Positions 31,816 to 38,349 of a stretch of DNA of 64,000 bases are shown here, one piece after another. Both the position numbers and the translations under genes were made by a program. Source of the stretch: Alicyclobacillus tolerans (GTDB lineage Bacteria > Bacillota > Bacilli > Alicyclobacillales > Alicyclobacillaceae). Every line of letters starts with the position of its first letter. Positions within the stretch are counted from its first letter, which is position 1. The stretch is taken from assembly GCF_001447355.1 (NCBI RefSeq), contig NZ_JXBW01000001.1:124001-188000 (forward strand), given 5' to 3'. Under the pieces are notes generated by a model. The model did no database searches and was not told the DNA's origin. It worked only from the letters and a program-made list of their open reading frames with translations.

Positions 31816-32406
31816 TTATTCGCGCGTTTTTCCGTCCTGAAAATCATCATGGCGAAGACGTTCGAGCTGTTCCAAGCTGCGTAAAAGCCGTTCCAATTGA
31901 TTCAGTTTTCCCTCTATGCGATGAAGATGACTTTGCATGTCGTCGATTTCTTGCTCGGCTTTGTAGTTGATGGCAAAGTCGATAATCGATTCATGCTTGT
32001 CCCTCGCAGCTTGCCGGTTTTGGCTCATCATGATGATGGGCGCTTGAAATGCAGCAATAAACGAAAGACAAAGGTTCAGCAAAATGAAAGGCGGCTTATC
32101 AAAATGATACCGTGCCGTATACGGAATGGTGTTCCACACCATCCACGCCGCCAGGATGCCACCAAAAATCATAAGAAATGTCCAACTACCGCCAAACGAT
32201 GCAATGCGATCCGCCAGCTTGTCCGCCCATCGGGTCTTGCTGACATACTCTTCATCGATCTGCGAGAGGATGTTCTCTTCATACATGTTGACGAGGCGAG
32301 CGATACGCCGGGCATCTCCCTCGTTGATCGGAATGTCGAAGCCTTCAAGGTTCATGTTGTCCTGGCGCGAGTCGGAAGAGTGGACGTAATAGTAGCGTTT
32401 GCCCAT
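31816..32406 (-). CDS. DUF1003 family membrane protein
   Basis: A 196-residue protein with the DUF1003 signature: RWADKLADRIASFGGSWTFL, then two adjoining hydrophobic helices (GGILAAWMVWNTI and LLNLCLSFIAAFQAPIIMMSQNRQ) and a coiled-coil tail. These are inner-membrane proteins of unknown activity. ATG 32406 follows AGGAGG. It is divergent from the DUF421 gene; both are poorly characterised membrane proteins. Confidence 0.88.
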   Translation of the reverse strand: MGKRYYYVHSSDSRQDNMNLEGFDIPINEGDARRIARLVNMYEENILSQIDEEYVSKTRWADKLADRIASFGGSWTFLMIFGGILAAWMVWNTIPYTARYHFDKPPFILLNLCLSFIAAFQAPIIMMSQNRQAARDKHESIIDFAINYKAEQEIDDMQSHLHRIEGKLNQLERLLRSLEQLERLRHDDFQDGKTRE

Positions 32407-32543
32407 ATTCACGCCTCCTCCTGCGCAATCTGCAACTCCATACTATTCTGTCGAGCCAACATGGGCAAGGGGACCCGGATAATTTTATCACCGATGGAAC
32501 AAGATCGTGATATGTGCAGGCGAGGTTGGGTGTTGACATTCTG

Positions 32544-33077
32544 ATGAACGTACATTGGCTGATGACCATTGCAGCAACGACATTCACATTTGTAATCTTA
32601 CTCATGCTCGTACGGTGGATCGGTGAAACGCAGATCAGTCAAGCTACATACTTCAATTGGGTCGCCGGAGCGTGTATGGGCAACATCGCAGCAAACATGA
32701 TCACGGCTGGTGGCTGGCAACCTTTGATCACGGGTGCCGTTCAACTTTTTTTCTTCTCAGCGGTCACCATAGCTGCGGCGTATTTGTCGCTGAAAAGTAG
32801 ACGCTTTCGCAAGATCGCGACTGGGGAACCGATCATACTTGTGCACCGCGGGCAGTACATCCTTAAACACATGAAGAGAAGCAAAATTGATCTTGATCTC
32901 CTGCAGCAGATGTTGCGAGAACAAGGCTATTTTGACTACCGCAAGGTGGAATACGCCATCCTGGAGCCCACGGGGAGCCTCAGTGTCTTACCGAAGTCTG
33001 ATCGCGAAGACAAAGTCGACGTGACTCCGCCAAATCCCGAGGCCGAGCAGCGGCAGCAAACCAATCATATAAAATAG
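32544..33077 (+). CDS. DUF421 (YetF-type) membrane protein
   Basis: A 177-residue protein with three hydrophobic helices (ending about residue 85) followed by the DUF421 cytoplasmic domain: RKIATGEPIILVHRGQYI and LDLLQQMLREQGYFDYRKVEYAILEPTGSLSVLPK. It has the layout of the Bacillus YetF/YdfR/YrbG proteins (germination- or stress-linked, function unclear). The ATG at 32544 fits the family N-terminus; a GTG at 32514 has no better SD. Confidence 0.85.
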   Translation: MNVHWLMTIAATTFTFVILLMLVRWIGETQISQATYFNWVAGACMGNIAANMITAGGWQPLITGAVQLFFFSAVTIAAAYLSLKSRRFRKIATGEPIILVHRGQYILKHMKRSKIDLDLLQQMLREQGYFDYRKVEYAILEPTGSLSVLPKSDREDKVDVTPPNPEAEQRQQTNHIK

Positions 33078-34150: not shown

Positions 34151-35494
34151 TCAATTCGTGTGACGATAGCGAAGACGGCGCAGCAAGTCTTCCATAGCTG
34201 GACGTTTGGCCTCGGTATAGGAGGCCCAATCAGCGAATCCTTGTGCGACCAACTGTCGCTTGACGAAGCTGTATTCCTGTAGCAAGTCATCGCGGCTCCT
34301 AAGCAAGTTTGTGAAGTCCACCGCAGCTTTTGCCAACCGGCCGCCCGCTTTCACAATCTGCAAGTGGCATCTGACTTCGTCATCCTTGATCCAATACAGT
34401 CGACCTTTGATCCCTGCATTCCCGCAAAACTGATACCCCAAACGCTCCAATTGTGCATGTTCTTCCGGGGTTACACGTGGGCGAGACAGTTCAACCAAGA
34501 TGTCGATCACGCCGTTTGCTGTGCCAAAGGGCAACGCGGTCGCACCGATATGCCGGATATGAACCATCGCCCGGTTGGCAAACACCCGATTTAAGGCTTG
34601 CCGTTCAATCGCAAACAGCTCGGACCAATCAGCCGGTAAGTCGGATAGAACGACCGATTCTAAGGCCTGTGCAGGCGGTCGAAAACCGAAATGCCGCCGT
34701 GTTGCCACAACGGCAATCCATAGGACGAGCACCCCGTACATCAGCAGTGCCCACAGCTCAGTCGGAGCCGAAGTCGAGGACACCCATGTAATCCAAAGAT
34801 CATATCCACTATGTACGGCGATGACTAACAGGATGCGTCCGGTGACGACTGCCATCAACGCCAAAAGCAGGCCAAGCCCACTAAACAAATACCAAGCCTG
34901 CAACCGACTGTGCGAAAATTCGAGGATGTGCCCGGCGCCAAATGCCAAAGAACTTAAGATGACGGCAATCGTAAACGCGGCGGCGCGCACACGGCCATGC
35001 CGCCAGCTATCTCCTGTTAGCCAACGACAGACGATGACGACCGTGCCAATCATACTCCAACGCCACAGTTCTTCTAACCCAGCCAAGAGGGCAATGACGT
35101 AGTCCATGACACCAGCTTTTGTTGAGACGTTGGTCTGCGTAAACTGTAAAAACAGGCTCTCTATGATGCTGAACAGTTCTAACAACGCGATCAAAGCGAT
35201 AGGCGTCAATATGTAAAGATAAAGCCGCCATTTCAATAAAGCGACAGGCTTGCCCACGTACATGCGCGATCGCAACGGATCCCATGTGCGAAACAACGCA
35301 CGGCGAATGTGTGGTAAGACGACGATCAAAGCAAAGACACTTAGCAGGATATACCCCCAGGCCACCCATGCGGCGTTTGGGCTCGTATCCAGATTGGCAA
35401 TCGTCGCATAAACGGCAAAGCACATCATGTATCCGATGCGCCAAGCGCCAATATTGCGAACAAGGCGATCCGGCAGTTGCCTCCATCGATTCAC
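34151..35494 (-). CDS. CPBP-type membrane protease domain fused to a GrpB (UPF0157) domain
   Basis: A 447-residue fusion. Residues 1-270 hold about 7 hydrophobic segments with the CPBP/CAAX-protease pattern: EELWR (141-145), FGAGH (185-189) and AVHSGYD (226-232). Residues 288-447 match GrpB/UPF0157: HIGATALPFGTANGVIDILVE, YQFCGNAGIKGRLYW, then DFTNLLRSRDDLLQEYSFVKRQL. The GrpB part belongs to the nucleotidyltransferase fold; its canonical GSTSVPGL is degenerate (GATALP). Start GTG 35494 has GGAGG six bases before; the open frame to 35593 is unsupported. I know of no studied protein with this architecture. Confidence 0.8.
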   Translation of the reverse strand: MNRWRQLPDRLVRNIGAWRIGYMMCFAVYATIANLDTSPNAAWVAWGYILLSVFALIVVLPHIRRALFRTWDPLRSRMYVGKPVALLKWRLYLYILTPIALIALLELFSIIESLFLQFTQTNVSTKAGVMDYVIALLAGLEELWRWSMIGTVVIVCRWLTGDSWRHGRVRAAAFTIAVILSSLAFGAGHILEFSHSRLQAWYLFSGLGLLLALMAVVTGRILLVIAVHSGYDLWITWVSSTSAPTELWALLMYGVLVLWIAVVATRRHFGFRPPAQALESVVLSDLPADWSELFAIERQALNRVFANRAMVHIRHIGATALPFGTANGVIDILVELSRPRVTPEEHAQLERLGYQFCGNAGIKGRLYWIKDDEVRCHLQIVKAGGRLAKAAVDFTNLLRSRDDLLQEYSFVKRQLVAQGFADWASYTEAKRPAMEDLLRRLRYRHTN

Positions 35495-35589
35495 CGAAAC
35501 CCTCCAAACAGACAATCCCCCCGCCAGTGCGAGGGGTGCCGTGACATATTTCTCATTATAGCGAAAGAAGATCACTCGGGCAGATTGCA

Positions 35590-36009
35590 TCACATTTGCT
35601 TATGTGCCAGCAAGCGACGGTGTTCCACGTCAAAGCGCTTGTTCGAAACAACTTTGAGGCCGGCCTGCTCGGCTTGCGCAATGGCGGCTGGATCGTATGC
35701 ACCCTTATCTAGCCAGAGGACCTTGGCATTGGCTCGTATGGCGTCTTGGACGACGTCTGCCACGTGGCGCGAGTTGCCCGCGACCTCGACGATGTCGACA
35801 GGCTCTTGAATGTCATGCACATGTTGTACCGAAGGGTGTCCGAGCACCGTTTCGCCTTCTCGATTGACCGCAATGACGCGATACCCTTGCGACTGTTGAT
35901 AAGACGCAACACGGTACGGATCGGTTTGCGGATTGGAGGTCAGCCCGACCGCGGCGATCACCTGTGCATTCGCCATGAGCTGCGTCAGTTCGCTATCCGA
36001 CACGTCCAT
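35590..36009 (-). CDS. CoA-binding protein (YccU-like)
   Basis: A 139-residue Rossmann-fold protein with VIAAVGLTSNPQTDPYRVASYQQ and VDIVEVAGNSRHVADVVQDAI, matching the CoA-binding/YccU group of succinyl-CoA-synthetase-like domains. Ligand binding is known for the fold; the cellular role is not. ATG 36009 follows GAGGAGG. It is separated from DUF1540 by 11 bases and is probably co-transcribed with it. Confidence 0.88.
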   Translation of the reverse strand: MDVSDSELTQLMANAQVIAAVGLTSNPQTDPYRVASYQQSQGYRVIAVNREGETVLGHPSVQHVHDIQEPVDIVEVAGNSRHVADVVQDAIRANAKVLWLDKGAYDPAAIAQAEQAGLKVVSNKRFDVEHRRLLAHKQM

Positions 36010-36020
36010 AAGCTGCCTCC

Positions 36021-36254
36021 TCACTTCGACGCATTGTTTTGCGATTTCGGCCGGAACGTATGACAGCACGTCTGCATAGAAGATTGAGCCCAGTCTGTGC
36101 GCTTGGTGTCGACGGCGATTTCGCTCGCAATTTCCTCGCGGAAGTTTGCGCGGCTTTGATTGTCCACCGTCACCATAATGCCAGGTGCAGCACAATCATT
36201 GTTGGCTTTCCAAAAGTAACAATTCGAGACGCTGCATTTCACATCTACCATCAT
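36021..36254 (-). CDS. DUF1540 cysteine-rich protein
   Basis: A 77-residue small protein with the DUF1540 cysteine pattern: VKCSVSNCYFWKANNDCAAPGI, and CCHTF near the C-terminus. It probably binds a metal ion through these cysteines. Common in spore-formers; function unknown. The ATG at 36254 follows GGGGGAG. Confidence 0.85.
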   Translation of the reverse strand: MMVDVKCSVSNCYFWKANNDCAAPGIMVTVDNQSRANFREEIASEIAVDTKRTDWAQSSMQTCCHTFRPKSQNNASK

Positions 36255-37290: not shown

Positions 37291-38349
37291 TTATTGCCAT
37301 CCCCAGGAAAACTGAATGGTGTAGCCGCTACCGTTACCTGCGCTTGTCGGGATGCTAATTGACCAACTGCCGCCAGGCATCCATCCGCTCCAACTGGATA
37401 CATCTCGGTGATGACCACCGCCGTATGAAGATACAGGCCAGTGGCTCCATCCTTGCGACCACCCGTCGCCAAAGCCACCACCATCACCCGGCAGTCCATC
37501 GCCTGCACCACTTGATGTCGTACCCAAAGTGGTCGTCGAGAAGGACTCTCCATCCGTGCCAAGACTGGAGGGGCTGATGAGAATGTCGCCTGCATTGTCA
37601 ACCATGGCCACAGACTGGACGGTGTTTCCGGAACCTGTAATAGGTTGCCCATCGACCGTCGCATTCGTGAATTGAACGGTTCCCGCATTGGCCAGCGGAT
37701 ACAGATCACCTTGTTCAGAGGACGGGTCTTCGCTAATCCATTCCGCAGACGTACCGATATTCGCCGCATACCGGTTGCTGAGGGAGACGGTTATACTTTT
37801 ACTCTCCGTTTGCCCAGATGGTGTAGTCACATGGATGGACAAGTTCCAAGTCGAGCCGTTACCCTTATCAATGGTCGCGGCAACGGAGGAGCCGACAGGA
37901 ATGGTCATGACGGAATTAGCAGAGGCGGGTAATTTCTCCCAGAACACATCTACCGCTTGTTGTCCATTGACCATTTGTTCCGTTGTACCAATTTGTAGTA
38001 AATCCTGGTTTTCCACACCCCCCAAACCAATCCACTGAGCCGCCATGGAATTGTCCGCACCGGAAATGGTTGGCACGACCCAATTGCCGGTTACGCTTGT
38101 ATAACCGTTCGCTCCGCTTGGGGTCGCGATATATCCACTCCAATTTGCCGAGCCTTGTGTATTCGCTGGTAATGACATGTTACCGACAGAACTGTTCTGA
38201 CCGGTGCGAGTAGAATACCGCGTATTGTCATACGTGAGCTTGGTTTGTGTCTGCATAGAGCGCTGGACGTGATCCACACCCAATAAGCATGCAGCCGCCG
38301 CGCCGACTGCCAGCCCTGACTGTACAATAATTCGACGTTTCGAGTGCAT
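37291..38349 (-). CDS. Secreted G1-family (eqolisin) glutamic endopeptidase
   Basis: A 352-residue exported protein with a signal-like N-terminus (about 1-30). The beta-sandwich core begins NWSGYIATPSGANGYTSVTGNWVVPT. The catalytic dyad of the family is visible: Gln105 in MAAQWIGLGG and Glu203 in SAEWISEDP. Eqolisins are acid-active endopeptidases, mostly fungal, with bacterial members including Alicyclobacillus. A Gly/Ser/Trp-rich C-terminal tail (290-352, with GGGHHRD) is additional. Start ATG 38349. Confidence 0.88.
   Translation of the reverse strand: MHSKRRIIVQSGLAVGAAAACLLGVDHVQRSMQTQTKLTYDNTRYSTRTGQNSSVGNMSLPANTQGSANWSGYIATPSGANGYTSVTGNWVVPTISGADNSMAAQWIGLGGVENQDLLQIGTTEQMVNGQQAVDVFWEKLPASANSVMTIPVGSSVAATIDKGNGSTWNLSIHVTTPSGQTESKSITVSLSNRYAANIGTSAEWISEDPSSEQGDLYPLANAGTVQFTNATVDGQPITGSGNTVQSVAMVDNAGDILISPSSLGTDGESFSTTTLGTTSSGAGDGLPGDGGGFGDGWSQGWSHWPVSSYGGGHHRDVSSWSGWMPGGSWSISIPTSAGNGSGYTIQFSWGWQ

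Follow-up and report, generated by a model that had tools for sequence, protein, structure and literature searches.

To our knowledge, the GrpB family (UPF0157; PF04229) has no settled role, and we know of no member for which nucleotidyl transfer has been found. SpdC, a protein of CPBP fold, is thought to act as a scaffold and, as far as we know, lacks a GrpB domain. Prokaryotic CPBP proteins are called largely unexplored in a passage of PMC11980579, and their first motif is given as EExxxR in excerpts of PMC6588880 and PMC11980579; for the remote relatives PrsW and APH-1, EExxR or QExxR is reported in an excerpt of PMC6588880 to align to EEXXXR. The C-terminal UPF0157/GrpB domain of M. tuberculosis CoaE is described in parts of PMC2765170 as needed for folding and for a soluble, active kinase; cis-regulation by substrates, methyl transfer and phosphopantetheinyl transfer are given in the same parts as ruled out for this domain.

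The gene analysed here lies in a stretch of 64 000 nucleotides from Alicyclobacillus tolerans (the window) and joins relatives of both families in line. With the CPBP/Rce1-like proteases (PF02517; MmRce1 4cad, myxosortase) its product shares a helical fold at modest Z values, the two glutamates and the FxxxH and HxxxD/N motifs, and it differs from them in having EExxR instead of EExxxR, in carrying a C-terminal GrpB-derived domain and, in the window protein, in scoring under the Pfam cut-off. The membrane half and SpdC (6u0o) are alike in membrane fold, again at modest Z, whereas all motif residues are kept in the fusion. Common to the fusion and to GrpB/UPF0157 (PF04229; 2nrk) are the fold, G-x-T, Asp331, His377, Lys412 and Lys430; in the fusion, Lys-Pro is gone, the Ser, His and Arg residues are mostly gone, and a membrane domain is attached. 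GrpB/UPF0157 is a C-terminal extension both here and in mycobacterial CoaE (6n39), whose partner, unlike that of the fusion, is a soluble kinase.

Reading frame and leader

The CPBP/Rce1-like plus GrpB fusion gene occupies 34151..35494 on the minus strand and consists of 447 codons plus TGA, with a GTG start at 35494. The minus frame from 35494 to 34151 is open throughout, and the plus strand of the same interval contains many stops. A preliminary description of the locus, which had reported a single 447-codon frame with a Shine–Dalgarno sequence and no stop at the junction, was thus correct, the frame being on the minus strand. The Shine–Dalgarno sequence GGAGG (35501..35505, minus) is located six bases ahead of the GTG. 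In an alternative, longer reading the open frame can be extended to a GTG at 35593, where it overlaps the end of the upstream gene. Position 35494 is the likely start, and it is preferred over 35593 because the extension contains a TATAAT and a leader hairpin, both also found in related loci.

The TATAAT (35555..35560, minus), a −10-like box recognised by its sequence, precedes nine of the ten fused genes, including that of the window; it was not seen ahead of the fused gene of G001 (G000 denotes the window's own genome, other G numbers the genomes of relatives). The leader hairpin CCCCUCGC/GCGGGGGG (35517..35536, minus) precedes the Shine–Dalgarno sequence. In the window it is a perfect 8 bp hairpin between TATAAT and Shine–Dalgarno sequence, and it was also found in G003 and G011. 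Hairpins of 10–11 bp are present in the same place in the four fused genes of the second clade that were folded, and in the other two genes of that clade the same inverted repeat is visible. The stand-alone membrane-half gene of A. acidiphilus is preceded by a hairpin of different sequence. The fold z-scores of the leader hairpins ranged from −1.2 to −4.4; by eye, no hairpin was evident ahead of the gene of G001 or ahead of the other four stand-alone genes. An Rfam search gave one chance-level match, far under its gathering score. The hairpin is possibly an operator or a translation control element.

Internal starts were sought between residues 236 and 330 as start codons with a Shine–Dalgarno-like site of at least four letters. 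Five fused genes contain 1 to 4 such starts each, and none is present in this range in G000 (the window), G003, G011, G013 and G014.

The two halves of the protein

The CPBP/Rce1-like membrane half (residues 1–270; 34685..35494, minus) was assigned from profiles, motifs and a structural model. The motifs EExxR, FxxxH and HxxxD named in the preliminary description are all present, at E141–R145, F185–H189 and H228–D232. Motif 1 (E141 E142 x W R145; 35060..35074, minus) is invariant in the 18 members of the membrane-half alignment, as are F185 and H189 of motif 2 (F185 G x G H189; 34928..34942, minus), motif 3 (H228 x x Y D232; 34799..34813, minus) and, among further residues, E192 and Y231. The spacing in motif 1 is one residue shorter than in the usual EExxxR. 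In the Pfam search (Rce1-like, PF02517) the window protein scored 18.7–19.9 bits, below the cut-off of 22.4 (E about 1e-3 to 2e-3); the cut-off was passed by eight of nine relatives scanned singly, and at E up to 1 all 18 alignment members, the window's included, match the profile.

Modelled alone, the membrane half reached pLDDT 87 and pTM 0.86. Foldseek returned zero matches for this model at E 0.001, and a structural aligner was run on the best 1000 chains by Foldseek rank. The best matches were MmRce1 (4cad; Z 7.7, rmsd 4.6, 171 aligned) and SpdC (6u0o; Z 7.3, rmsd 5.1, 170 aligned), both of them CPBP relatives, followed by a next row at Z 5.4; Z values under 8 fall in a range that can reflect merely a common arrangement and are weak if taken alone, so the N-terminal half is called CPBP-like from the modest Z values together with the motifs and profiles. 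The helices of the model can be read as about eight transmembrane spans, and a plain hydropathy scan gave five peaks. Lysine/arginine (positive-inside) loop counts point to an N-in/C-in topology of the membrane half. The GrpB half comes after an inside-type, arginine-bearing loop; since loop charge puts both ends inside, this part should be cytosolic. A search for the CPBP subfamily in 299 genomes of the phylum, with at most eight candidates scored per genome, found one weak partial match beyond the window's genome.

The GrpB-derived domain (residues 281–439; 34178..34654, minus), identified by Pfam and by fold and predicted to be cytosolic, follows a junction linker (residues 271–280; 34655..34684, minus) of low confidence in the model (pLDDT under 50 for residues 267–278). 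Its match to Pfam GrpB (PF04229) scored 97 bits, where the cut-off is 25.5 (E 2e-27), and all ten fused proteins match this profile. The whole-protein model has a mean pLDDT of 76 and a pTM of 0.61. Residues 282–446 superimpose on the E. faecalis GrpB structure 2nrk with Z 19.5 (rmsd 2.5, 161 aligned), and residues 279–447 on the UPF0157 part of mycobacterial CoaE 6n39 with Z 17.4 (rmsd 2.7, 167 aligned). The assignment of the C-terminal half to GrpB is secure. Of the two families proposed, GrpB was matched by profile and by predicted fold (2nrk, Z 19.5); for CPBP, the profile score of the window protein stayed below the cut-off passed by eight of nine relatives, and the best fold match had a modest Z (4cad, 7.7).

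For the comparison of signature residues, 47 GrpB sequences were extracted and six duplicates or near-duplicates removed, to leave 41; two of these are identical, one (L070) is a GNAT fusion, and 25 are best-scoring class-level matches, a choice that favours canonical sequences. The signature G-S-T...K-P-x-x-D of the comparison set is absent from the fused domain. Lys and Pro ahead of the conserved Asp are found in 41/41 comparison sequences, and neither is kept in any of the ten fused proteins; in the window, N327-G328 (34511..34516, minus) stand in their place in the alignment. Ser318 is present in 40/41 comparison GrpBs versus 3/10 fused proteins, Arg395 in 40/41 versus 1/10, and His379 in 37/41 versus 2/10. 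In G001, the deepest fused branch of the GrpB tree, the Ser, His and Arg are present and Lys-Pro is absent. Kept in all ten fused proteins are H315, G317, T319, D331, Y354, R365, H377, K412, Y426 and K430. Lys-Pro is present in the GrpBs of the genus and of the order in the comparison set, some of them low-scoring, and in 25/25 GrpBs of other long frames (one of these, L070, being also among the 41); neither sampling nor fusion as such therefore explains the loss. Rather than a canonical family member, the fused GrpB domain is a derived offshoot, and from this pattern of conservation we infer that it is probably inactive.

Both halves are under purifying selection. For the pair G000–G011, dN/dS was 0.09 in the CPBP half and 0.13 in the GrpB half; the corresponding values were 0.05 and 0.29 for the closest pair (G000–G003), and in the second clade (G008–G002) the GrpB half (0.14) and the CPBP half (0.17) were about equal. 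Values for the GrpB half reached at most 0.45, many distant pairs being saturated. Among the fused members the GrpB halves are 27–92% identical, and identity in the membrane half goes down to 43%.

The statement that GrpB proteins are normally stand-alone did not hold: a CoaE fusion is known (6n39; PMC2765170, in part), and GrpB partners in the sampled genomes include GNAT, APH, kinase-like AAA_18/33, Beta-lactamase2 and His_Phos/NUDIX domains. GrpB appears as a promiscuous partner, with a His_Phos-GrpB-NUDIX triple fusion among its forms (L149, L150, L154, L155, L157, L159, L161, L162, L165; L070, L117, L119–L122). Several of these partners act on small molecules, which may be a clue to what GrpB itself handles. 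In the window's class, 242 of 398 genomes have GrpB; the class-wide matches listed omit the genus's own fused copies and are thus blind to degenerate GrpBs. Five of the six frames of at least 300 amino acids among these matches were scanned (G067 being left out), and all are GNAT-GrpB; one 506-amino-acid frame of the order is GrpB-APH. In a second class (154 genomes, 46 with GrpB), 19 of the 20 listed frames of at least 331 amino acids were examined (G772 being left out): in none does the partner domain contain at least two hydrophobic stretches, and in one it contains a single stretch. Pfam was run on ten of these 19 frames, with AAA matches near the cut-offs and one below. Among the long frames examined in the two classes, GrpB fused to a membrane domain was seen nowhere else. 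The GNAT-GrpB, GrpB-APH, GrpB-AAA_18/33, GrpB-Beta-lactamase2 and His_Phos-GrpB-NUDIX proteins resemble the fusion in using GrpB as a partner; unlike CPBP-GrpB, they have soluble-type partners and retain Lys-Pro. The architecture itself had been regarded as undescribed, and no CPBP-GrpB fusion was found in the literature available as open-licence full texts. GrpB as a fusion partner being already known, what is new to us is its membrane partner and the loss of its signature.

Distribution, neighbourhood and origin

The in-line fusion is genuine. When the window's genome and 60 relatives were searched (61 in all), 10 of the 15 Alicyclobacillus genomes proved to carry it at full length, and no genome outside the genus did. 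The other five genomes of the genus contain the membrane half alone (270–283 codons). A family-alignment search of 59 genomes of the order gave ten fused genes, all within the genus, and stand-alone membrane halves in five genomes of the genus and in four other genomes of the family. A chance pairing is excluded, because each of the ten fused proteins matches both families at E 0.01 and 10 of the 15 Alicyclobacillus genomes share the full-length fusion. The nearest named relatives found were Alicyclobacillus hesperidum (96% identity over the best segment) and A. sacchari (79%). No GrpB besides the fused copy was found in eight of the ten genomes that carry the fusion. None of 65 matching plasmid records covers 80% of the full-length fusion query.

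Directly upstream of the fusion lies a CoA_binding_2 gene (35590..36195, minus; Pfam), and a member of its cluster is directly upstream in 9 of the 15 loci of the genus. A DUF1003 gene (31816..32412, minus; Pfam) is found downstream on the same strand as the fusion, an arrangement present in nine of the ten fused loci (the call resting on Pfam in the window, on cluster membership in six further loci and on the first codons only in G009 and G014) and not seen downstream of the fused gene of G001. In the second fused clade (L005–L010) DUF1003 starts 5 bases past the fusion stop in six of six loci, in an operon-like arrangement; in the window it is 1.7 kb from the fusion, past two opposite-strand genes. 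A Peptidase A4 family gene, which we take to encode an acid glutamic peptidase, is located at 37291–38349 (−) of the window, and in 10 of the 15 loci its cluster lies close to the CPBP gene. A DUF421/YetF-type membrane gene (window 32514–33077, +) adjoins an AXE1 esterase; its cluster is near the CPBP gene in 4 of the 15 loci and adjoins the stand-alone gene in A. acidiphilus. A link to defence systems was also considered and was rejected, since neither the fusion nor DUF1003 nor the CoA_binding_2 gene upstream matched any PADLOC family at E 0.01.

In the membrane-half tree, the fused protein of G001 is placed among stand-alone ones, and a single fused clade is disfavoured (p-AU 0.015). A clade of the fusion-bearing species is rejected by the rpoB DNA tree (p-AU 0.0015) and is not rejected by the rpoB protein tree (0.127). 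The GrpB halves of all ten fused proteins form one clade against the 41 comparison GrpBs (100/98), and the grouping of G001's GrpB half with all but one of the comparison GrpBs is disfavoured (p-AU 0.017). Two residues of the fused domain are likewise distinctive: L336 is present in 10/10 fused proteins (V in 40/41 and I in 1/41 comparison GrpBs), and V416 in 10/10 (A or S in 41/41). Because the fused GrpB parts form one clade, a single fusion within the genus with at least two later losses is the likeliest and best supported history, though not a proven one; long branches flagged in both family trees leave room for two fusions of similar GrpBs. The 700 bases downstream of each of the five stand-alone genes contained no recognisable GrpB remnant (best score −0.2 bits). 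A match in G012 that runs past the stop to model position 315 via two stops was not upheld by this search.

Proposed function and alternative readings

The reading favoured here, to which we would give an even chance, is that of an intramembrane protease and a non-catalytic cytosolic GrpB-derived domain combined in one membrane protein. The N-terminal half would be a CPBP domain with about eight helices and would probably act as an intramembrane glutamic protease; it looks like a working protease because all motif residues are fixed even though the half diverges to 43% identity. The C-terminal half would face the cytosol and help to fold the membrane half, bind a partner or ligand for it, or regulate it, probably without catalysis of its own. 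The loss of the GrpB signature, together with the lack of this half in sister species, makes a role in regulating, stabilising or positioning the membrane half the most likely one; that 5 of the 15 genomes of the genus do without it suggests that it would tune rather than enable CPBP function. M. tuberculosis CoaE is the nearest described precedent for a fused GrpB that aids the folding of its partner. Retention of D331, H377 and both lysines speaks against a non-catalytic domain and leaves room for some catalysis. The EExxR spacing, the low Z values of the CPBP fold match and the survival of a lone membrane half in 5 of the 15 genomes also count against the favoured reading. On the same sequence grounds, a rather unlikely and more specific proposal is that the cytosolic half acts as a pseudo-nucleotidyltransferase, which still binds a nucleotide, a CoA-like ligand or a partner through its retained Asp, His and Lys residues and sets the activity of the membrane protease from the cytosolic side. 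The preliminary suggestion of a protease controlled by the GrpB half comes close to the favoured reading and may hold.

It is possible, though clearly less probable than a working protease, that the CPBP half is a non-proteolytic membrane scaffold of the SpdC/Abx1 type, to which the former GrpB half would dock a cytosolic partner. SpdC (6u0o) is among the two best structural matches, the Abi-domain protein Abx1 is reported in part of PMC3578759 to bind the kinase CovS, and EExxR departs from the usual motif; motif residues invariant in 18/18 members would, however, be needless in a pure scaffold, and the shorter spacing has a counterpart in the EExxR/QExxR of PrsW and APH-1, reported to align to EEXXXR (PMC6588880, in part). 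That the GrpB half is a mere passenger, left by a single tolerated fusion and decaying slowly, is distinctly unlikely. Its absence from five of 15 genomes with no recognisable remnant within 700 bases downstream, its faster evolution than the CPBP half in the closest pair (G000–G003, 0.29 vs 0.05) and the many signature residues gone would all suit such a course; against it, the GrpB half never exceeds a dN/dS of 0.45 where this could be computed and is about level with the CPBP half in the second clade, and the frame is open and the residue core kept in all ten fused members.

The suggested nucleotide-transfer chemistry at the membrane, by an active GrpB nucleotidyltransferase tethered there, is very unlikely given the loss of residues invariant in 41/41 comparison GrpBs: the fold and D331, G317 and T319 are retained, but Lys-Pro is lost in 10/10 fused proteins, Ser318 in 7/10, Arg395 in 9/10 and His379 in 8/10. 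Extremely improbable are a sequencing or assembly artefact and the production of two proteins from one mRNA. Shine–Dalgarno-like internal sites do occur near the junction in five of the ten fused genes, but the window's gene is without one, and an artefact is countered by the same architecture in ten genomes with GrpB halves 27–92% identical. The joining of two separate genes by a sequencing error was rejected, the fusion being full length in ten genomes.

Across most of the genus, the fusion amounts to a natural experiment in which the membrane protease residues are fixed and the GrpB signature residues are lost. It raises the question of what use a GrpB domain has without its signature residues, and it offers a handle on the regulation of a bacterial CPBP domain, for which the sister species with a lone membrane half are ready-made controls. 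Should the proposal of a ligand-binding pseudo-nucleotidyltransferase be true, the protein would combine an intramembrane glutamic protease and a sensor of metabolites in one chain.
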